Position numbers and translations under genes: made by a program. A stretch of DNA of 64,000 nt from an uncultured Monoglobus sp. (GTDB taxonomy: Bacteria; Bacillota; Clostridia; Monoglobales; Monoglobaceae). The notes beneath the pieces are model-generated. The model worked only from the letters and a program-made list of their open reading frames with translations. It made no database searches and was not told the DNA's origin. Of the stretch, positions 44,950-54,738 are shown piece by piece (position 1 is the stretch's first letter; each line of letters begins with the position of its first letter). The stretch covers positions 1-64,000 of the forward strand of contig CANRHV010000004.1 in assembly GCA_947630505.1 (NCBI GenBank), read 5' to 3'.

Positions 44950-45792
44950 ATGAGAGAAATAAACGCGAAAACCATTACGGACACAGTGGAGCGAATGTGT
45001 ATCGACGCCAACTGCTGCTTGAACGACGATATCAAGTCGGCGCTTGAGCGCGGTCTTGACGCCGAGACAAACGCCGCCGCGAAAGACACGCTGCAAAACA
45101 TACTCAAAAACGCGGACATCGCGGCGGCCGAGGAGCTGCCGATCTGTCAGGACACGGGCATGGCGGTATTCTTTATAAAAGTCGGTCAGGATGTCCATAT
45201 CACCGGCGGACTTTTAAGTGACGCGGTGAACGAGGGCGTGCGCCGCGGCTACGAGAGCGGTTATCTGCGCAAGTCGGTCGTGGCAGACCCGATAAGGCGC
45301 GGCAACACCGGCGACAACACGCCGGCTATAATCCATACCGAGCTCGTCGCGGGCGACAGCATCGAGATAACTATCGCGCCCAAGGGCTTCGGCAGCGAGA
45401 ACATGAGCGCGATAAAAATGCTCAAGCCCTCCGAGGGCCTGAGCGGCGTGATAGATTTTGTTGTAGACACCGTAAGGAACGCGGGAAGCAACCCGTGCCC
45501 GCCCATAGTGGTCGGCGTGGGAATAGGCGGCTCGTTTGAAAAGGCGGCGCTTATGGCGAAACAGGCGCTGCTTAGGAGCGTTGACTCGAATAACCCCGAC
45601 CCGTACTACGCGGAGCTTGAAAGCACTCTGCTCAAAAAAATAAACGAGACGGGCATCGGCCCTCAGGGCTACGGCGGAGCGACGACCGCTTTGGGCGTCA
45701 ATGTCGAGACCTTCCCCACCCACATAGCCGGAATGCCCTGCGCGGTAAACATAAGCTGCCACGTGACGCGGCACCTGACAAAAATAATTTGA
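44950..45792 (+). CDS. Fumarate hydratase/tartrate dehydratase-type Fe-S alpha subunit
   Basis: 280 residues, full-length alpha subunit of class I hydro-lyases. Cysteine ligands for the 4Fe-4S cluster: EELPICQDTGMAVFF, GSNPCPPIVVGVGIGG and the C-terminal ISCHVTRHLTKII. It normally pairs with a beta subunit (about 180 residues) directly downstream, but the next gene here is the aro leader. Either the beta subunit is elsewhere, or the protein is inactive alone. The start at 44950 has only a GGG(A)-type site. Confidence 0.9.
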   Translation: MREINAKTITDTVERMCIDANCCLNDDIKSALERGLDAETNAAAKDTLQNILKNADIAAAEELPICQDTGMAVFFIKVGQDVHITGGLLSDAVNEGVRRGYESGYLRKSVVADPIRRGNTGDNTPAIIHTELVAGDSIEITIAPKGFGSENMSAIKMLKPSEGLSGVIDFVVDTVRNAGSNPCPPIVVGVGIGGSFEKAALMAKQALLRSVDSNNPDPYYAELESTLLKKINETGIGPQGYGGATTALGVNVETFPTHIAGMPCAVNISCHVTRHLTKII

Positions 45793-45811
45793 TATTTTTT
45801 CAAAAAACACT

Positions 45812-45840
45812 TGCAATTTGCTTGAATATATTGTATAATA
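45812..45840 (+). promoter_or_regulatory. Promoter of the aromatic operon
   Basis: TTGCAA (45812-45817), 17 bases, TATAAT (45835-45840). Transcription from about 45847 would include the leader ORF and attenuator. Confidence 0.85.
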
Positions 45841-45878
45841 TCAGGCAGTGTTTTAAATTAATGCACAAGGAGTTAAAA

Positions 45879-46004
45879 ATGAGTAATCTGCCGCAGGGAA
45901 AACTTGACAACACAGCAGAATATTTCTACTTTAGCCACAGCTTTTACTTTAGCTTTGGCTATTTTCCGTGCCGCAATTCAGGTAAAGCCCGTTTATGCTC
46001 CTAA
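45879..46004 (+). CDS. 41-residue Phe/Tyr-rich leader peptide
   Basis: ATG after AAGGAG (45867-45872), 41 codons. Residues 15-29 read YFYFSHSFYFSFGYF: six Phe and four Tyr in 15 codons, and none elsewhere. The peptide has no recognisable domain. It is followed by hairpins and a terminator before aroF, so translation speed on the aromatic stretch would report charged tRNA-Phe and tRNA-Tyr. Chance is very unlikely given position, promoter, ribosome site and terminator. Leader-peptide attenuation is typical of Proteobacteria and Actinobacteria and uncommon in Firmicutes. Confidence 0.85.
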   Translation: MSNLPQGKLDNTAEYFYFSHSFYFSFGYFPCRNSGKARLCS

Positions 46005-46068
46005 TATAAAAGCATAAAACTTTGAAAATTATTCAAGGATGGGCTTTGCGCTCGTCCTTTTTATTTTT
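45940..46068 (+). promoter_or_regulatory. Aromatic operon attenuator (mutually exclusive hairpins)
   Basis: Region 1 GCTTTTAC (45940-45947, inside the Phe/Tyr codons) can pair with region 2 GTAAAGC.. (45982-45990). Region 2 GTAAAGCCC can instead pair with GGGCTTTGC (46041-46049), nine pairs, which would break the terminator. A local hairpin GTTTATGC/GCATAAAAC (45991-45998, 46012-46020) sits between. A ribosome paused on Phe/Tyr codons would free region 2 and allow read-through. Stem choices were made by eye. Confidence 0.75.
46035..46068 (+). terminator. Intrinsic terminator of the aro leader
   Basis: AAGGATGGGC (46035-46044) pairs with GCTCGTCCTT (46050-46059) around a short loop and is followed by TTTTTATTTTT, a strong T-run. 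It is the terminator member of the attenuator. Confidence 0.88.
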
Positions 46069-46095
46069 ACAAACACATATTCAGGAGGAAATAAA

Positions 46096-47115
46096 ATGGT
46101 AGTAATCTTAAAACCGAAAACAAGCGAGGATGACGTAACAAAAATCATATCATACATCGAGGACATGGGCCTCGACGTTATGATAAACAAGGGCGTTGAC
46201 TGCACCGTGCTGGGTCTCTTGGGAGACACCAGCCGCATCGACCCCGACACGCTGATGCTCAACGTGCACGTTGACCGCGTTATGCGCATAGCGGAGCCGT
46301 TCAAAAAGGCCAGCCGCAAGTTCCATCCCGAGCCGACCGAGATAAAGGTCGGGAACGCGGTGATAGGAAAAGAGGGCACGTTCACGGTCATGGCGGGTCC
46401 GTGCAGCGTCGAGACCGAGGAGCAGATCATACACGTCGCCGAAAGCGTCAAAAAAAGCGGAGCGGCTCTGCTGAGAGGCGGAGCGTTTAAGCCCAGGACC
46501 TCGCCCTACTCGTTCCAGGGACTCGAGCTCGAGGGTCTGCGCCTGCTCAAAGAGGCGAGAGACAAAACAGGTCTGCCCATCGTGACCGAGATCATGTCTC
46601 CGAAAATGGTCGAGGTTTTCGAGAAGGACGTTGACGTGATACAGGTGGGTGCAAGAAACATGCAGAACTTTGATTTGCTCAAAGAGCTGGGCAAGACATC
46701 AAAGCCCATTCTATTAAAGCGCGGTCTCTCGGCCACGATCGAGGAATGGCTTATGTCCGCCGAGTACATTTTGGCCGAGGGCAATCCCAACGTTATTCTG
46801 TGCGAGCGCGGCATAAGAACCTTTGAGACATACACAAGAAACACTCTTGACCTGAGCGCGATCCCCGCGGTGAAGCGTCTCAGCCACCTTCCCGTGATCG
46901 TCGACCCGTCGCATTCGGCGGGCATGAGCTGGATGGTGGAGCCTTTGTCGCTGGCTGCGATGGCGGTCGGAGCCGACGGACTTATCATAGAAGTTCACAA
47001 CAACCCCGCCAAAGCGTGGTGCGACGGCGCACAGTCTCTGAACGAGACGCAGTTCGACAATCTTATGAAAAAAATGCGCGCCATAGGCAAGCATGTTGAA
47101 AAAGAAATCGTGTGA
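46096..47115 (+). CDS. aroF: 3-deoxy-7-phosphoheptulonate (DAHP) synthase
   Basis: 339 residues. First step of the shikimate pathway: PEP plus erythrose 4-phosphate to DAHP. An N-terminal ferredoxin-like/ACT-like domain (1-80; VVILKPKTSEDDVTKIISYI) precedes the catalytic barrel with FTVMAGPCSVETEEQI, LLRGGAFKPRTSPYSFQG, ILLKRGLSATIEEWL, CERGIRTFETYTRNTLD and PVIVDPSHSAG. The N-terminal domain marks the class often inhibited by Tyr/Phe. GGAGG precedes the ATG at 46096; the longer frame from 46039 would start in the terminator. Confidence 0.96.
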   Translation: MVVILKPKTSEDDVTKIISYIEDMGLDVMINKGVDCTVLGLLGDTSRIDPDTLMLNVHVDRVMRIAEPFKKASRKFHPEPTEIKVGNAVIGKEGTFTVMAGPCSVETEEQIIHVAESVKKSGAALLRGGAFKPRTSPYSFQGLELEGLRLLKEARDKTGLPIVTEIMSPKMVEVFEKDVDVIQVGARNMQNFDLLKELGKTSKPILLKRGLSATIEEWLMSAEYILAEGNPNVILCERGIRTFETYTRNTLDLSAIPAVKRLSHLPVIVDPSHSAGMSWMVEPLSLAAMAVGADGLIIEVHNNPAKAWCDGAQSLNETQFDNLMKKMRAIGKHVEKEIV

Positions 47116-47129
47116 CACGGGTGATAAAA

Positions 47130-47990
47130 ATGGAAAGTGATTTTAAAGTCGCGGTTATCGGCCTGGGTCTGATCGGCGGCTCGCTGGCGTACGCGCTGAG
47201 GGGATTCAGGCGCGCCCTGATCGCGGGCTGCGACATAAACCCCAAGACCCGCGCCGCGGCGCTTAAAAACAAGGCGGTGAGCGAGGTATTTGACAACGCC
47301 GGCGACGCGATCGAGGGGGCCGATCTGGTGGTGTTCTGCACCTATCCCGACAGCATCGGGAACCTGATCGACTTAAATCGCGGCAGGTTCAAAAAAGGCG
47401 CCGTGGTTTCGGAAGTGTGCGGAGTAAAGAGCGGGGTCTCAAAGCGTATCCGCGCGGCCCTGCCCGAGGGCGTCGATTACGTCGGAGGTCACCCGATGGC
47501 CGGAAAAGAGGTCGACGGCTTTGAGAACGCCTCATCCGAGCTGTTCTGGATGAGCGGATTTATAATAACGCCCGACAAAAAATCAAAAAAAAGCAGCATA
47601 GCGCTTTTGCGGGAGATGGCGAAATATATAGGCGCAACCCGCATAGCGACAGCCGATCCCGACGAGCACGACCGCGTGATCGCCTATACAAGCGACCTTA
47701 TGCACGTGGCGGCGTCGGCACTCTGCCTCGACTATCCGCCCGAGATGAACCGCGCTTACACTGCGGGCGCGTTCCGCGACTGCACCAGGGTGGCGCGGAT
47801 AAACGGCGAATTGTGGAGCTCGCTGTTTATTTCAAACAAGAAAAACGTGGTGAGCGAGATCGACCGTCTGATAGGCAGCCTCGAAAAAATACGCGGACTT
47901 GTGGACACAGCTGACCGCGATAATCTCGAAAAGCTGCTCAACACGGTCTGCGAAAACAAGATCACCATGCAGGAAAAGGAGCCTGAATAA
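47130..47990 (+). CDS. tyrA: Prephenate dehydrogenase
   Basis: 286 residues. Oxidatively decarboxylates prephenate to 4-hydroxyphenylpyruvate for Tyr. Rossmann NAD site VIGLGLIGGSLAYALRG, then VSEVCGVKSGVSKRI, GHPMAGKEVDGFENA and a C-terminal helical domain (DEHDRVIAYTSDLMHVAASAL, GAFRDCTRVARIN). No ACT domain, so no direct Tyr-binding regulatory tail. ATG at 47130 after a weak GGGTG. Confidence 0.94.
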   Translation: MESDFKVAVIGLGLIGGSLAYALRGFRRALIAGCDINPKTRAAALKNKAVSEVFDNAGDAIEGADLVVFCTYPDSIGNLIDLNRGRFKKGAVVSEVCGVKSGVSKRIRAALPEGVDYVGGHPMAGKEVDGFENASSELFWMSGFIITPDKKSKKSSIALLREMAKYIGATRIATADPDEHDRVIAYTSDLMHVAASALCLDYPPEMNRAYTAGAFRDCTRVARINGELWSSLFISNKKNVVSEIDRLIGSLEKIRGLVDTADRDNLEKLLNTVCENKITMQEKEPE

Positions 47991-47991
47991 T

Positions 47992-49047
47992 ATGGAAAAA
48001 CTGAGAGTAAACATTCCCAAAAGAGAGTATGATATAATTATCGACAAAGACATATTAAAGAACACCGCGGACTATATCAGAGAGGTTTTCGGAGGCGGAA
48101 AGATCGCCGTTGTGACAGACTCCAACGTGGGCCCGCTGTACGGCGGCACCGTGATAAACAGCCTTAAAAGCGGCGGCTTTGAAACCGAGCTTATCACGAT
48201 CCCGGCCGGGGAGAAGAGCAAAAGCGAAAAATATTTGTTTGAGCTTTATGACAGGATGCTCTCGTTCGGCTTGACGCGCTCCGACCTGATAATAGCTCTG
48301 GGCGGCGGCGTTGTGGGCGACCTGACAGGCTACGCGGCGGCGAGCCTGCTGCGCGGAGTGCCTTATGTTCAGATCCCGACCACTCTGCTTGCGCAGGTGG
48401 ATTCCAGCGTGGGCGGCAAGGTGGCTATAGATCTGCCGAGAGGCAAAAATCTTGTGGGCGCGTTCAACCAGCCCAAAATGGTCATAATCGACACCGAGTG
48501 CTTAAAGACGCTTTCGCCCCGAGTTTTAAGCGACGGAATGGCCGAGGTCATCAAATACGGCGCCATAAAAGACAAAGATTTGTTTGAGCTTTTGGAAAAT
48601 ATAAAAAACACAAAAGAATTGTTTGCAAAAATAGATAAAATAGTATATAATTGTTGTGATATAAAAAGACAGGTGGTAGAGGAGGACGAGTTCGACAAGG
48701 GCGGACGCATGATACTCAATTTCGGCCACACCTTCGGCCACGCCATCGAGAAGCAGTACAACTATGTGACCTACACTCACGGTGAGGCTGTGGGCGTGGG
48801 AATGCGGATGGCGTGCGAGTACGGCGAGCGTCTGGGGCTGACCCCCGCGGGCACCGCCGAGAGAATGATAAAAATCCTTGAAAACTACAGCCTGCCGACA
48901 CATATTGAGATAAGCAAGCGGCAGCTCGGCGACGCGGCCGCCGTCGATAAAAAGGGCGAGGGCGCCTATATCAATCTGATATTGCTGAGCGGCATAGGCG
49001 ACGTGCTTATAAAAAAATTCAAGAAAGACGAGTTTTTGAACATTTAA
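47992..49047 (+). CDS. aroB: 3-dehydroquinate synthase
   Basis: 351 residues. Cyclises DAHP to 3-dehydroquinate with NAD and a metal. Motifs: VTDSNVGPLYGG, TIPAGEKSKSEKYLFELY, ALGGGVVGDLTGYAAA, QIPTTLLAQVDSSVGGK, metal-binding ILNFGHTFGHAIE and HGEAVGVGMRMA. AAAGGAG precedes the ATG at 47992; one base separates it from tyrA. Confidence 0.97.
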   Translation: MEKLRVNIPKREYDIIIDKDILKNTADYIREVFGGGKIAVVTDSNVGPLYGGTVINSLKSGGFETELITIPAGEKSKSEKYLFELYDRMLSFGLTRSDLIIALGGGVVGDLTGYAAASLLRGVPYVQIPTTLLAQVDSSVGGKVAIDLPRGKNLVGAFNQPKMVIIDTECLKTLSPRVLSDGMAEVIKYGAIKDKDLFELLENIKNTKELFAKIDKIVYNCCDIKRQVVEEDEFDKGGRMILNFGHTFGHAIEKQYNYVTYTHGEAVGVGMRMACEYGERLGLTPAGTAERMIKILENYSLPTHIEISKRQLGDAAAVDKKGEGAYINLILLSGIGDVLIKKFKKDEFLNI

Positions 49048-49077
49048 TATATATATTTAACTTTTTTGGAGGATGTT

Positions 49078-50346
49078 ATGGAAGATATTAAAGTAATACG
49101 TCCGAGCATGCTTCGGGGCACCGTGTCGGTGCCGCCGTCCAAAAGCGTGGCTCATCGGGCGATTATTGCTGCGGCTCTGAGCGGCGATGACTGCGTGATC
49201 GAAAATGTGGTTATGTCGGATGACATAACCGCCACCGTGGGCTGTATGCGCGCTTTGGGCGCAAAGTGCCGCGTCAACACCAAGAGCATGACGGTGAGCA
49301 TTTCGGGCAAAAAGACATATAAAGTAAAAAACATGATAACTCTCGACTGCTTTGAGAGCGGCTCGACGCTGCGGTTCCTTATGCCGCTGGCGCTGGGCAG
49401 AGGCGTGCCGGTCAAGTTTATCGGCCGCGGACGGCTGATGAAGCGGCCCCAGACGCCTTACTTCAATATTTTCCGCGAGAAGGGGATCAAGCTCAAGACG
49501 GGCGACGATTATATAATCCTGGACGGAAAGCTCGAGAGCGGAAGCTACGGCCTGGCGGGCAACGTCAGCTCACAGTTCATAACCGGCCTGCTGTTCGCGC
49601 TGCCGCTGCTTGAGGGCGACAGCGAGATTGTCGTATCGGGCGAGTGCGAGAGCAAGGGTTATATCGACCTGACTATTGACATTCTCAAAAAATTCGGTAT
49701 CGAGGTCGAAAATTATAAATACAAGCTGTTCCGCGTAAAAGGCGGACAGAAATACAAAGGCTGCGGCGAGCTCAAGGTCGAGGCCGACTATTCGCAGGCC
49801 GCGTTTTTCCTGGTGGCGGACGCCATCGGCTGCAACGTGGAGTGCATGAATTTAAACCCCGACAGCCTACAGGGCGACCGCGCCATAATCGATATAATAA
49901 AGAGCGCGGGCGGCAGGATCGTCAAAGGCCCAAACGGCGGGCTTATGGCGAAAAAGACGGCGGTCATGCACGGCATCACGATAGACGCCCGCGACATACC
50001 CGATCTGGTGCCTATCTCCGCGGTGCTTTGCTCGTTCCTCGTCGGCGAGAGCCGGATCATAAACGCGGGACGGCTGCGGCTCAAGGAGAGCGACAGACTC
50101 AAGGCGGTATCCACCGAGCTTTCGCGGCTGGGCGTTGATATCCGCGAGACCGCGGACGGCCTTATCATAAACGGCCGCGACCTGCTCGAGAGCAACGTCT
50201 GCTCGTCCTGGAACGACCACCGCATAGCGATGGCGATCGCCATAGCCGCGTGCCGCTCGGAGGGCGAAGTAAGCATAACCGGCGCGGAGCAGGCGGTCAG
50301 AAAATCGTATCCCGACTTCTTTAAGGTATACGACAGACTGGTTTGA
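49078..50346 (+). CDS. aroA: EPSP synthase
   Basis: 422 residues. Joins shikimate 3-phosphate and PEP to EPSP. Motifs: PPSKSVAHRAIIAAALS, NVVMSDDITATVGCM, CFESGSTLRFLMPL, GRLMKRPQTPYF, SSQFITGLLFALPLL, ADYSQAAFFLVADAIG, RLKESDRLKAVS and WNDHRIAMAIAIAA. GGAGGATG precedes the ATG at 49078. Confidence 0.97.
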   Translation: MEDIKVIRPSMLRGTVSVPPSKSVAHRAIIAAALSGDDCVIENVVMSDDITATVGCMRALGAKCRVNTKSMTVSISGKKTYKVKNMITLDCFESGSTLRFLMPLALGRGVPVKFIGRGRLMKRPQTPYFNIFREKGIKLKTGDDYIILDGKLESGSYGLAGNVSSQFITGLLFALPLLEGDSEIVVSGECESKGYIDLTIDILKKFGIEVENYKYKLFRVKGGQKYKGCGELKVEADYSQAAFFLVADAIGCNVECMNLNPDSLQGDRAIIDIIKSAGGRIVKGPNGGLMAKKTAVMHGITIDARDIPDLVPISAVLCSFLVGESRIINAGRLRLKESDRLKAVSTELSRLGVDIRETADGLIINGRDLLESNVCSSWNDHRIAMAIAIAACRSEGEVSITGAEQAVRKSYPDFFKVYDRLV

Positions 50347-50377
50347 TTTAGTATAAAAAACATATTCGGAGGACGGT

Positions 50378-51451
50378 ATGAACATATTCGGAAGAAATAT
50401 AAGGCTCAGCATTTTCGGCGAGTCCCACGGGCTCGGCATAGGCGTTGTGATAGACGGCCTGCCGGGCGGGATAAAGCTGGACCTCAGTAGGATAGAGGCC
50501 GAGATGGAGCGGCGCTCTCCGGGGCGGAGCGGCATTTCGACCTCCCGCCGAGAGGCCGACAAGGTGGAGATCATGTCGGGCTTTGTGAACGGCATGACGA
50601 CAGGCACGCCGATTGCCGGAGTTATCAGAAACACCAACACGATCTCAAAGCACTATGAGAAAGACCTGATGCGCCCCGGCCACGCGGATTACACCGCCTA
50701 TGTGAAGTACGGCGAGAACCGCGACTACCGCGGCGGCGGCCACTTTTCGGCCAGGATAACAGCGCCGTTGGTGTTTGCCGGAGCCGTGGCCAAGCAGGTG
50801 CTTGAGGCCGAGGGTGTGCGCGTGGGCGCGCATATTCTGCGAATCGCCGACGTGTGGGATGAGCCTTTTGATCTCGCGAACGTTTCGGCCGCAGAACTGG
50901 CGGAAGTCTCAAAAAAGGATTTTCCCGTTATTGACGACAAAAAGGGAGAGCAAATGCGCGAGCGCATACTGGCCGCGAAAAATGACATGAACTCGGTGGG
51001 CGGCATCGTTGAGTGCGCGGCGGTGGGTATGCCCGCGGGAAAGGGCGAGCCGTTTTTCGGCTCGGTCGAGAGCCGTCTGTCGGCCATGCTGTATTCGGTT
51101 CCGGCGGTAAAGGCGGTTATGTTCGGCGCGGGAGCGGAATTCGCAGGAATGACAGGAAAAGAGGCTAACGACGAGTTTTACGTTGAAAACGGAGTCGTTA
51201 AAACCTACACCAACAACAACGGCGGCATAAACGGCGGCATAACCAACGGAATGCCGATCGTGTTCCGAACTGTTCTCAAGCCTACCCCATCGATCGCTCA
51301 AAAGCAGCGGACGGTCAATATCGAGAAGATGGAGAACGCCGAGATAGAAATACACGGCAGACATGACCCGTGCGTTGTTCACCGCGGCGCCGTGGTGATC
51401 GAGAACGCGGCGGCGGCCGCGCTGTTGGATTTGCTATATGACAGATTTTAG
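50378..51451 (+). CDS. aroC: Chorismate synthase
   Basis: 357 residues. Makes chorismate from EPSP with reduced FMN. Motifs: FGESHGLGIGVVIDGLPGGI, RRSPGRSGISTSRREADKVE, RPGHADYTAYVKYG and YRGGGHFSARITAPLVFAGA. GGAGG sits before the ATG. The C terminus has RHDPCVVHRGAVVIENAAAA, as in full-length enzymes. Confidence 0.97.
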   Translation: MNIFGRNIRLSIFGESHGLGIGVVIDGLPGGIKLDLSRIEAEMERRSPGRSGISTSRREADKVEIMSGFVNGMTTGTPIAGVIRNTNTISKHYEKDLMRPGHADYTAYVKYGENRDYRGGGHFSARITAPLVFAGAVAKQVLEAEGVRVGAHILRIADVWDEPFDLANVSAAELAEVSKKDFPVIDDKKGEQMRERILAAKNDMNSVGGIVECAAVGMPAGKGEPFFGSVESRLSAMLYSVPAVKAVMFGAGAEFAGMTGKEANDEFYVENGVVKTYTNNNGGINGGITNGMPIVFRTVLKPTPSIAQKQRTVNIEKMENAEIEIHGRHDPCVVHRGAVVIENAAAAALLDLLYDRF

Positions 51452-51462
51452 GATGTGAAAAA

Positions 51463-52641
51463 ATGGACAAAGAGCAAATAAATAATAAAGAAATTGAATA
51501 CGACACAAAGCTGGACGAGCTCCGCGCGGAGATCGACAGGATCGACTCCGAGCTTCTGCCGCTGTTTCTGCGGCGCATGGAGCTGAGCAGCGGCGTCGCG
51601 GACTACAAGCGGGGCGTGGGCAAGGCTGTTCTTGACTCGGAGCGCGAGAAGCAGGTGCTGATGAGCAAGATGGACCTCGTAGAGGGCAAGCGCCAAAAGA
51701 ACGAGGTATACGAGTTCTACGCGGCGATAATGTCGATCAGCCGCGAGCGACAGACCAGAGAGCTTGTGGGCTGCAACCGCACCATGGTCGAGGATCTGCT
51801 CGACCCCAAGTCCCCGATCGATGATCCCAAGATCGTATTCTACGGCGCCGGCGGTTCATATACCGAGCAGGCGGCGATAAAATATTTCGGCGCGGACTCA
51901 AAGCGCCGCAGCGTGCCGACATTCGACGGCGCGTTTTCGGAGCTTGAGAGCGGAAACGCCGACTATGCGGTGCTGCCCATCGAGAATTCGTACACCGGCA
52001 CGATAGCCGACGTGATCGACCTTCTCGCCAAATACGGATATTTCATCACGGGCGAGGTCGACGTGCCGATACGACACTGTCTGCTGGGCGTTCACGGGGC
52101 GGAGCTTTCGGATATCAGGACCGTGTATTCCCACGAGCAGGGCATAATGCAGAGCCGCGAGTTTTTAAAGACATTGGGCGAAGTTGAGCTCAAGGAGTAT
52201 TACAGCACGTCGCAGAGCGCGCAAAAGGTGGCGACGGACGGCGACAAGAGCAAGGCCGCCATCGCGGGACGTCAGAACGCCGAGCTGTACGGGCTCAAGG
52301 TTCTGGCTGAGGACATAAACAACAGCGCCAAAAACACCACGCGGTTTATAATCGTTTCGAAGAATCTTGAGATCGACGAGAGCTGCGACAAGATCAGCGC
52401 CGCGTTCACCCTGCCCCACCAGAGCGGCGAGCTTCACAGAATACTGGCGTGCTTCGCACGGGGTGACCTGAATCTGGTAAAGCTGGAGTCGCGCCCGCTG
52501 TATGACAGGAATTTCGAGTACATGTTTTTTGTGGATTACTGCGGGAATCTGCTTGACGGGCACGTGCGCCGCGTCACCAACAACGTTATCGAGGGCACGG
52601 GCGAGTTCAAGCTGCTCGGGAACTACAAGCTGAAAGAATAA
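51463..52641 (+). CDS. pheA: Bifunctional chorismate mutase/prephenate dehydratase
   Basis: 392 residues. AroQ-type chorismate mutase at about 15-100 (LRAEIDRIDSELLPLFLRRM), prephenate dehydratase about 125-300 (YGAGGSYTEQAAIKYF, YAVLPIENSYTGTIADVIDL, NNSAKNTTRFIIV), and ACT domain at the end (HQSGELHRILACFARGDLNL, SRPLYDRNFEYMFFVDY) that normally binds Phe. Twelve bases after aroC. Confidence 0.95.
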   Translation: MDKEQINNKEIEYDTKLDELRAEIDRIDSELLPLFLRRMELSSGVADYKRGVGKAVLDSEREKQVLMSKMDLVEGKRQKNEVYEFYAAIMSISRERQTRELVGCNRTMVEDLLDPKSPIDDPKIVFYGAGGSYTEQAAIKYFGADSKRRSVPTFDGAFSELESGNADYAVLPIENSYTGTIADVIDLLAKYGYFITGEVDVPIRHCLLGVHGAELSDIRTVYSHEQGIMQSREFLKTLGEVELKEYYSTSQSAQKVATDGDKSKAAIAGRQNAELYGLKVLAEDINNSAKNTTRFIIVSKNLEIDESCDKISAAFTLPHQSGELHRILACFARGDLNLVKLESRPLYDRNFEYMFFVDYCGNLLDGHVRRVTNNVIEGTGEFKLLGNYKLKE

Positions 52642-52653
52642 GAGGTATTATAT

Positions 52654-53157
52654 ATGAACGTTTTGCTTATCGGAATGCCGGGCTGCGGCAAGTCGGCCTT
52701 CGGCAAGGCCGCGGCGGACAGCCTGAACCTTGAGTTCACAGACACCGACGCGGAGATAGAGCGCCGCGAGGGCCCGATACCCGATATCTTCGCCGAGCGC
52801 GGCGAGGAGGAGTTCCGAAAGATAGAGACCGATGTGCTGTGCGATTGCCTACGCGGCGACGATCGGATAATTTCGACCGGCGGCGGCATAGTCACCCGCG
52901 GCGAGAACATTAAAATAATGAAGGAATCGGGCGCGGCCGTTATATTTATCGACCGTCCGCTTGAGCTTATCGCGGGCGATATTGACACATCGGGCAGACC
53001 GCTGCTCAAGGATAACGCGGAACGGCTCAAAACGCTGTATAAAGAGCGGTACGACAAATACAGAGAGGCGGCGACCGCCCTTGTCATAAACGACGGAACC
53101 TTCGCCTCCGCCCTCGGCGAAGTCCTGCGCCTAATCAGAAACACCGTCAAACAGTAA
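52654..53157 (+). CDS. aroK: Shikimate kinase
   Basis: 167 residues. Phosphorylates shikimate. P-loop LLIGMPGCGKSAFGKAAA, shikimate-binding FTDTDAEIERR, ISTGGGIVTRG and IDRPLELI. GAGGT before the ATG, 12 bases from pheA. Confidence 0.95.
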   Translation: MNVLLIGMPGCGKSAFGKAAADSLNLEFTDTDAEIERREGPIPDIFAERGEEEFRKIETDVLCDCLRGDDRIISTGGGIVTRGENIKIMKESGAAVIFIDRPLELIAGDIDTSGRPLLKDNAERLKTLYKERYDKYREAATALVINDGTFASALGEVLRLIRNTVKQ

Positions 53158-53160
53158 TTA

Positions 53161-53204
53161 TTGAGTTAACAGAAATTTTATGTTATAAAATTTTATGTTA
53201 TAAT
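53161..53204 (+). promoter_or_regulatory. Internal promoter region with tandem AATTTTATGTTATAA repeats
   Basis: TTGAGT (53161-53166), 17 bases, TATAAA (53184-53189). The 15-base unit AATTTTATGTTATAA occurs twice back to back, creating a second TATAAT at 53199-53204. It may drive the small ORF, aroQ and aroE separately. Confidence 0.5.
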
Positions 53205-53237
53205 AATAGTACAGATATTAATCGGGAGATGATTTGT

Positions 53238-53405
53238 ATGAGCGAATCGGAGAGAATTATCGCCAACGTTAATGCCACCATGACTATGGAAGGCATGCCG
53301 CTGACAGACGCGGACAAATCCAGAATAAGAGACTGTTTTGACGGCATAAAGAGTTTTGATGAAACCGTTAAAGAGTTAGTAGACTATTACAAAAAACCGA
53401 TATGA
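53238..53405 (+). CDS. Small VbhA-like (antitoxin-type) protein
   Basis: 55 residues, ATG after GGGAGATG. Sequence SERIIANVNATMTMEGMPLT then EETVKEL-like DETVKELVDYYKKPI resembles the VbhA antitoxin pattern (an inhibitory helix containing an S/T-x-x-x-EG-like block, here TMTMEGM, followed by two helices). In that family the EG glutamate occupies the Fic active site. No Fic toxin gene lies nearby; the gene is wedged between aroK and aroQ. Family assignment is by eye and tentative. Confidence 0.6.
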   Translation: MSESERIIANVNATMTMEGMPLTDADKSRIRDCFDGIKSFDETVKELVDYYKKPI

Positions 53406-53432
53406 AAGATCAATATTACAAGGAGAAATATT

Positions 53433-53873
53433 ATGAAGATCATGGTAATAAACGGGCCGAATATCAATATGCTGGGAATTCGCGAGCCCGACGTGTACGG
53501 CAACACCGGCTACCGGCAGCTTGAAAAAATGATCGAGGACCACGCGGCGGAGCGCGGCTGCGAGGCGGTCGTGCTGCAGAGCAACGGCGAGGGCGAGATC
53601 ATCGACTTTATCCATCACGCCCTTGCGAATTTCGACGGCATAGTGATAAATCCCGGCGCCTACACCCACTACAGCTACGCGATACTGGACGCGCTCAAGG
53701 CGGTAAACCTGCCCGCGGTGGAGGTCCACATCAGCAATATCCACAAGCGCGAGGAATTTCGGCATAAGTCGGTGACCGCGGCGGGCTGCGTCGGCCAGAT
53801 CTGCGGTCTCGGTCTTCGTGGCTATCTGCTGGCGATCGACTATCTTCTCGGCGAGGTGAAAACCGATGAGTGA
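53433..53873 (+). CDS. aroQ: Type II 3-dehydroquinate dehydratase
   Basis: 146 residues. Dehydrates 3-dehydroquinate. Motifs: VINGPNINMLGIREPDVYG, the active-site QSNGEGEIIDFIHHA, NPGAYTHYSYAILDAL and VHISNIHKREEFRHKS. AAGGAG before the ATG. Overlaps aroE by eight bases. Confidence 0.96.
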   Translation: MKIMVINGPNINMLGIREPDVYGNTGYRQLEKMIEDHAAERGCEAVVLQSNGEGEIIDFIHHALANFDGIVINPGAYTHYSYAILDALKAVNLPAVEVHISNIHKREEFRHKSVTAAGCVGQICGLGLRGYLLAIDYLLGEVKTDE

Positions 53874-54738
53874 TAAAATAAAGCTTAACGTTATCGGCGA
53901 CCCCATCGAGCACAGCAAGTCGCCGATAGTTCACGGCCTGGTGTTTGACGCTCTGGGCCTTGAGTGCGACTACACCCGAGTGCTCGTGAAAAAGGGCGGC
54001 CTTTCGGAATATATAAAATCCGCGATCGAGAGCGGCGTCAGAGGCTTCAATCTCACCATGCCGCACAAGGCCGACATAATCCCGTATCTCAAGGAGATCG
54101 ACGGCGACGCCGAGCTGTTCGGCGCGGTCAACACGGTCAAGATAAAAGACGGCGAGCTATACGGCTACAACACCGACGCCCGCGGCTTTGTGCTGTCGCT
54201 CGAGCAAAACGGCGTCGACGCCGCGGGCAAAAGCATTGTCATTCTCGGCGCGGGCGGAGTTGTGTCAACTCTGGCGCTCAAGCTGACCGACATGGGCGCG
54301 GCCGGGATCGCTGTCATGAACCGCACGGTCCAAAAGGCCGAGGCGGTCTGCGAAAAGATACGCGGCTACCAAAAGGACGGCAGGGCGCGGAGCGGCTGCG
54401 TGCTTATTTCGGGCGGCGCCGACGAGGCGGCAAAATATCTGCCCGACTGCGACATTTTGATAAACGCCACCCCTCTCGGCATGAGCGGCGTCGGCGCGGA
54501 CTACGGGGACCTGTCTTTCACGGACGGCCTTAACCCCTCCGCGGCGGTGTGCGACCTTATATACAGCCCGCCCAAAACAAAGTTTTTGTCATATGCCGAG
54601 GCGCGCGGGCATAAAATAATAAACGGCCGCGGAATGCTCATCGGCCAGGCGATACTGGCGGACGAGATATACCTCGAAAAACAACTGGACATCGGCGGAT
54701 TGTACGCGAAGCTCACCGGCGGCGATTATATAATTTAG
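53866..54738 (+). CDS. aroE: Shikimate dehydrogenase
   Basis: 290 residues. Reduces 3-dehydroshikimate with NADPH. Motifs: GDPIEHSKSPIVHGLVFDAL, GFNLTMPHKADIIPYL, FGAVNTVKI, YGYNTDARGFV, VILGAGGVVSTLALKL and the closing GMLIGQA. Last gene of the aro operon; AGCGAG-rich site in the end of aroQ. Confidence 0.95.
   Translation: MSDKIKLNVIGDPIEHSKSPIVHGLVFDALGLECDYTRVLVKKGGLSEYIKSAIESGVRGFNLTMPHKADIIPYLKEIDGDAELFGAVNTVKIKDGELYGYNTDARGFVLSLEQNGVDAAGKSIVILGAGGVVSTLALKLTDMGAAGIAVMNRTVQKAEAVCEKIRGYQKDGRARSGCVLISGGADEAAKYLPDCDILINATPLGMSGVGADYGDLSFTDGLNPSAAVCDLIYSPPKTKFLSYAEARGHKIINGRGMLIGQAILADEIYLEKQLDIGGLYAKLTGGDYII

Follow-up and report, generated by a model that had tools for sequence, protein, structure and literature searches.

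A leader peptide dense in phenylalanine and tyrosine codons as a probable ribosome-mediated attenuator of the aroF operon in Monoglobus and other Clostridia

Introduction

The pheA and trp attenuators of enterobacteria combine a run of codons for the end product, a pause-type hairpin and a mutually exclusive pair formed by an antiterminator and an intrinsic terminator. In Escherichia coli, the pairing between segments 1 and 2 of the trp and pheA leaders is broken by a stalled ribosome, while in TnaC it is the nascent peptide that stalls the ribosome in response to tryptophan. Discussions of amino acid operons in the Firmicutes usually centre on T-boxes, TRAP and repressors, with T-box leaders, which sense tRNA charging and attenuate transcription, being common in these organisms. 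Leader attenuators in Firmicutes have been described for his in bacilli (PMC2965389), for hisZ in Clostridium difficile (in work cited in PMC4833913) and for ilv in Staphylococcus aureus (PMC5794164) and Listeria (PMC5864092). These also act by ribosome-mediated attenuation, with amino acids and operons other than those of the leader described here. Upstream of aroF itself, the uORFC-13-1 motif of Acholeplasma comprises a uORF with Phe codon(s) and a terminator, for which attenuation has been proposed (PMC8632094). Compared by description, that motif is reported only from Acholeplasma and environmental sequences and holds at least one Phe codon, whereas the present leader carries a dense Phe/Tyr run.

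The leader considered here belongs to an uncultured Monoglobus sp. (assembly GCA_947630505.1) and lies in a 64,000-nucleotide stretch of contig CANRHV010000004.1, hereafter the window. It shares with the enterobacterial pheA and trp leaders an ORF rich in product codons, a hairpin within the codon run and an antiterminator/terminator pair. Unlike these, it would sense two amino acids and control a common pathway together with both of its branches, and its antiterminator strand is part of the 3' end of the ORF. There the strand is downstream of the Phe/Tyr hairpin and distinct from it, a position in which it can be masked directly by a terminating ribosome. Unlike T-box leaders, it would sense by translation and not by tRNA binding, and the Rfam T-box model (RF00230) has no match at the leader. 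No match to the leader was found in Rfam, Pfam or NCBIfam, and no Phe/Tyr leaders in Clostridia were found in the open-access literature. As far as this search extends, the leader is a new and widespread case of probable ribosome-mediated attenuation.

The Leader Locus and the aroF Operon

The features of the locus are collected in Table 1. A promoter, a ribosome binding site (RBS), a 41-codon ORF containing a 15-codon stretch with 10 Phe/Tyr codons, and a terminator had been placed before aroF in a first-pass annotation, and all have been confirmed at their positions. The promoter and the terminator stem are the sole predicted sites of their kind on the + strand of 45700-46150; the promoter scan by itself performs near chance (2 found vs 1.4 expected), and a sequence resembling the promoter can be recognized by eye in several relatives. 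Upstream, a fumarase gene on the same strand as aroF ends at 45792. Within the leader peptide the sensing run spans residues 15-29, with six Phe and four Tyr, and contains the P0 hairpin (AGCCACAGCU/AGCUUUGGCU in the window), which is probably a pause hairpin. The need to keep this hairpin can account for the conservation of Ser and Gly codons (AGC/GGC) in the peptide motif.

Table 1. Features of the leader and the operon (window coordinates)
Feature	Position	Strand	Description
Promoter	45811-45839	+	Sigma-A-type; -35 TTGCAA 45811-45816, 17-nt spacer, -10 TATAAT 45834-45839
Leader RBS	45867-45872	+	AAGGAG; present in most aligned relatives
Leader ORF	45879-46004	+	41 codons; ATG 45879, TAA 46002-46004; peptide MSNLPQGKLDNTAEYFYFSHSFYFSFGYFPCRNSGKARLCS
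Sensing run	45921-45965	+	YFYFSHSFYFSFGYF; 10 Phe/Tyr codons in 15
Hairpin P0	45933-45960	+	Within Phe/Tyr run; arms 45933-45942 / 45951-45960
Antiterminator 5' strand	45982-45991	+	GUAAAGCCCG; last coding part of leader ORF
Hairpin P2	45992-46018	+	UUUAUGC/GCAUAAA; inside antiterminator, loop holds stop codon
Hairpin P3	46020-46038	+	CUUUGAA/UUCAAGG; inside antiterminator, overlaps 5' end of terminator
Intrinsic terminator	46035-46067	+	10-bp stem 46035-46059 and U tract
Antiterminator 3' strand	46040-46049	+	UGGGCUUUGC; part of terminator 5' arm and loop
aroF	46096-47115	+	DAHP synthase with ferredoxin-like N-terminal domain (PF00793, PF18152); first operon gene
tyrA, aroB, aroA, aroC, pheA, aroK, aroQ, aroE	47130-54738	+	Confirmed by Pfam

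The aroF gene has an RBS of its own (AGGAGG, from 46083) and opens an operon of nine genes that encode all steps to chorismate as well as both branch enzymes, the tyrA product and the chorismate mutase-prephenate dehydratase specified by pheA. A 275-base gap before aroQ (53158-53432) holds neither a terminator-like site nor a + strand promoter-like site. The earlier claim that the leader controls the entire pathway thus stands for Phe and Tyr, whose chorismate steps, tyrA and pheA are all included, and does not extend to Trp, which is a separate branch. Judging from sequence, the Trp branch is probably under TRAP and the Phe/Tyr branches under the leader peptide, two different kinds of RNA switch.

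As to other regulatory elements, TRAP (PF02081) is encoded in the genome, with TRAP/trpE loci at L187 (G000:C50:1381-2200) and L191 (G000:C24:14744-14938), and trpE is preceded by CAGATTAGACGAGATTAGGTATTTGAGATTAGACGAGACGAG, in which TRAP-like NAG triplets are mostly spaced by two bases. The Rfam model finds only two T-boxes in the genome: one at 626-875 of the window, immediately upstream of a gene for a sodium/solute symporter-like protein (846-2480), and one before thrS, with both target names having been read from translations.

Folding and Mutual Exclusion

The fold of 45840-46068 is more stable than that of dinucleotide shuffles (z = -3.6). The two antiterminator strands of Table 1 can pair with each other. 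This joins the end of the ORF to the terminator's 5' arm, so that antiterminator and terminator, which share 46040-46044, are mutually exclusive. Constrained folding of 45976-46067 gave -25.2 kcal/mol for the antiterminator and -20.9 kcal/mol for the terminator, both being equilibrium and not cotranscriptional predictions. This overlap and these energies bear out the mutually exclusive hairpins that had been noticed in the first reading. When the bases occupied by a ribosome at the stop codon are blocked in the fold, the terminator alone remains; when the A site of the ribosome is set on the last Phe codon, the antiterminator stays intact. According to these folds the operon would be read in the absence of translation, in contrast to E. 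coli trp.

The following sequence of events is proposed. RNA polymerase would start at about 45846, as the promoter suggests, and a ribosome would then load on the leader ORF, the Phe/Tyr-run hairpin probably holding the polymerase until the ribosome arrives. With ample Phe and Tyr, the ribosome would reach the stop codon at 46002 and cover much of the antiterminator 5' strand and the adjacent P2 arm; with the strand covered, the terminator stem would form and transcription would end before aroF. With Phe or Tyr in short supply, the ribosome would stall within the sensing run with its leading edge short of 45982, leaving the 5' strand free to pair with the 3' strand, in which case no terminator would form and the operon would be read. 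On sequence and modelling grounds, the leader is very probably a ribosome-mediated attenuator of the aroF-tyrA-aroB-aroA-aroC-pheA-aroK-aroQ-aroE operon, with charged Phe-tRNA and Tyr-tRNA as the signals sensed.

Conservation in the Genus and the Order

The leader is present in all 12 same-genus genomes searched, that of the window included, and all of them keep the peptide, which is 98-100% identical on contigs of sister uncultured Monoglobus. Antiterminator and terminator are likewise kept in all 12 aligned genomes. In the 12-row alignment, the antiterminator set together with the run hairpin is paired in 94.7% of cells, against 25.7-51.4% in a control with columns slid by one to three, and the terminator pairs in 100% of cells. 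Covariation within the genus is modest, both sides having changed in three antiterminator-set pairs and in two terminator pairs.

With a profile HMM of the peptide, matches were obtained in 34 of 51 genomes of the order (E up to 0.1) and in 39 of 391 genomes of the class (E up to 0.001). From the peptide searches, several low-scoring matches (L017-L031) proved to be noise or pieces of other genes and were set aside. At the order loci examined, the leader stands before aroF, tyrA (L038, L039, L049) or a chorismate mutase/pheA gene (L046, L047, L051), and the peptide core YFFYFSxSFYFSYGYF is well conserved within the order at the amino acid level.

Distribution in the Class

Relatives of aroF occur in 180 of 246 class genomes. 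A survey sample of 100 upstream regions, one of which was too short (n = 99), was drawn from the better-matching part of these relatives as ranked by similarity; the sample leans toward enzymes like that of the window, and the fraction with a leader is not a census. A short ORF with an RBS and at least 6 Phe/Tyr in 15 residues was present in 60 of the 99 regions, against a mean of 1.5 and a maximum of 5 in dinucleotide shuffles; with a stricter cut-off of at least 8 Phe/Tyr, 41 regions remained against 0.1 in shuffles. Two regions above the threshold (L160 and L178) were unlike leaders and were removed by hand, which leaves a Phe/Tyr leader in 58/99 regions and in 28 of 38 families. By these criteria 41 regions are without a leader, eight of which look operon-internal, and two that fall below the threshold (L103 and L112) look like true leaders. 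A hairpin followed by a T run comes after 102 of 103 leaders, a few of these being weak. Across the class, the Phe/Tyr density of the peptide core is kept and its sequence is not (for example, YYYYYFFF and YFYFYFYFF).

Such a leader had been regarded as unusual for Firmicutes. In this class it is instead common, with the leader in 58 of the 99 sampled regions; of 39 regions with a doubtful leader or none, scanned in full with Rfam, 2 contain a T-box. A reasonable case can be made that Phe/Tyr attenuation is the commonest control of aroF in the class as sampled, that it is old there and unrecorded in Rfam, Pfam and NCBIfam, and that it has an architecture of its own, in which one ORF holds the sensing run, the run hairpin and the antiterminator strand, and the terminating ribosome would shut the operon directly. 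In most clostridial families sampled, a leader peptide that would be read by the ribosome stands before the gene for the enzyme that opens the shikimate pathway. A phylum-wide peptide search, a method insensitive for peptides this short, added two genomes outside the class, and a plasmid search for the leader gave no match. The Phe/Tyr leaders outside the class stand before aroF in two genomes of the same phylum (L188 in G450 and L189 in G434).

Covariation, Codon Choice and Geometry

The leaders are too divergent to be aligned across the class, and the pairing rule was therefore tested instead, by matching the end of each ORF with the arm of its own terminator. Among 78 non-redundant loci, duplexes with the own partner have a mean of -13.2 kcal/mol. 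When partners were permuted between loci 10,000 times, the mean was -9.2 kcal/mol (sd 0.28, minimum -10.4). In just 10 of the 78 loci does the ORF end pair best with its own terminator, which is accounted for by a shared UAAUGAG/CUCAUUA theme that makes mismatched partners partly complementary. Covariation across relatives, which had been proposed as a check, thus supports the pairing both within the genus and in this class-wide permutation test. The earlier proposal of ribosome-mediated attenuation by Phe/Tyr codons has in this way gained strong comparative support, covariation included, and we infer the direction of the response.

Codon choice provides further evidence. Synonymous codon permutation weakens the pairing of the ORF end to -11.4 kcal/mol (real pairing stronger in 59/78 loci; p about 2e-9), and the Phe/Tyr-run hairpin has -9.8 against -7.0 in synonymous permutations (stronger in 65/78; p about 7e-11). 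These results indicate that one short ORF is under a triple constraint, as it has to provide aromatic codons, a hairpin within them and the antiterminator strand. This strand starts a median of 25 nt past the final Phe/Tyr codon of the run, and its end precedes the stop codon by a median of 5 nt; in 58 of 67 loci that end falls between -20 and +12 relative to the stop. Such a geometry suits stalling that frees the strand and termination that covers it.

As a Phe/Tyr ORF whose end is complementary to a terminator arm, the leader offers a computational handle for mapping Phe/Tyr regulons, tyrA and pheA units included. It also makes it easy to test how close the coupling between transcription and translation is in these bacteria.

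Alternative Explanations

Direct masking of the antiterminator strand by a ribosome at the stop codon, as the folds suggest, is the simpler and probable reading and is ranked first. A variant of the same attenuation, closer to the enterobacterial leaders, has upstream RNA of the ORF sequester the antiterminator strand until a stalled ribosome opens the pairing; it was first suggested for this locus in the form of a stalled ribosome that would cover region 1 and so release the antiterminator. On transcripts cut before the terminator, the probability of upstream pairing of the strand has a class-wide mean of 0.65 against 0.51 in synonymous shuffles (p about 6e-7), exceeding the shuffles in 52 of 65 loci with a large excess in L094, L124, L135, L143 and L082. 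In the window itself, however, upstream pairing is 0.31 and below the 0.48 of its own shuffles, with L034 behaving likewise; there is no overlap between the stable Phe/Tyr-run hairpin and the antiterminator strand, and masking at the stop codon alone suffices in the fold. Upstream sequestration is accordingly kept as a secondary possibility, a tentative reading that may describe an addition to direct masking, since both may act together.

Arrest of the ribosome by the nascent peptide, triggered by free Phe or Tyr in the manner of TnaC, would account for the good conservation of the peptide core within the order. It is nonetheless highly improbable, considering that Phe/Tyr density is all that is conserved class-wide, that the AGC/GGC codons are explicable by the hairpin, and that an excess of Phe or Tyr would turn on their own synthesis, which is the wrong sign. 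Slightly less probable still is that the ORF encodes a functional small protein or arose by chance, with the terminator belonging to the upstream fumarase gene. The protein-level conservation in the order and the position of the terminator between two same-strand genes would fit this, but a promoter-like site separates fumarase gene and ORF, class-wide covariation links the 3' end of the ORF to the terminator, and such an ORF stands before about 60 of 99 aroF genes against 1.5 in shuffles. Control of the aro operon by a T-box riboswitch or TRAP is the least probable reading, as the two T-boxes and the TRAP of this genome are set against the lack of a T-box match at the leader and a TRAP-like triplet array seen before trpE.

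Leaders Before Other Genes

Ribosome-mediated attenuation of the kind preferred here may extend beyond aroF. A Phe/Tyr leader precedes tyrA, and not aroF, at L038, L039 and L049, and a chorismate mutase/pheA gene at L046, L047, L051, L067, L068, L070 and L079. The latter leaders have a distinct motif ending in FAMKKLLVR and the terminator arm CCUCACUUGUAAC. At L071, a Phe/Tyr leader stands before another type of DAHP synthase (MNMNFLRKLPIPQ). These targets other than aroF, namely tyrA, pheA/chorismate mutase and the other DAHP synthase, are all relevant to Phe and Tyr.
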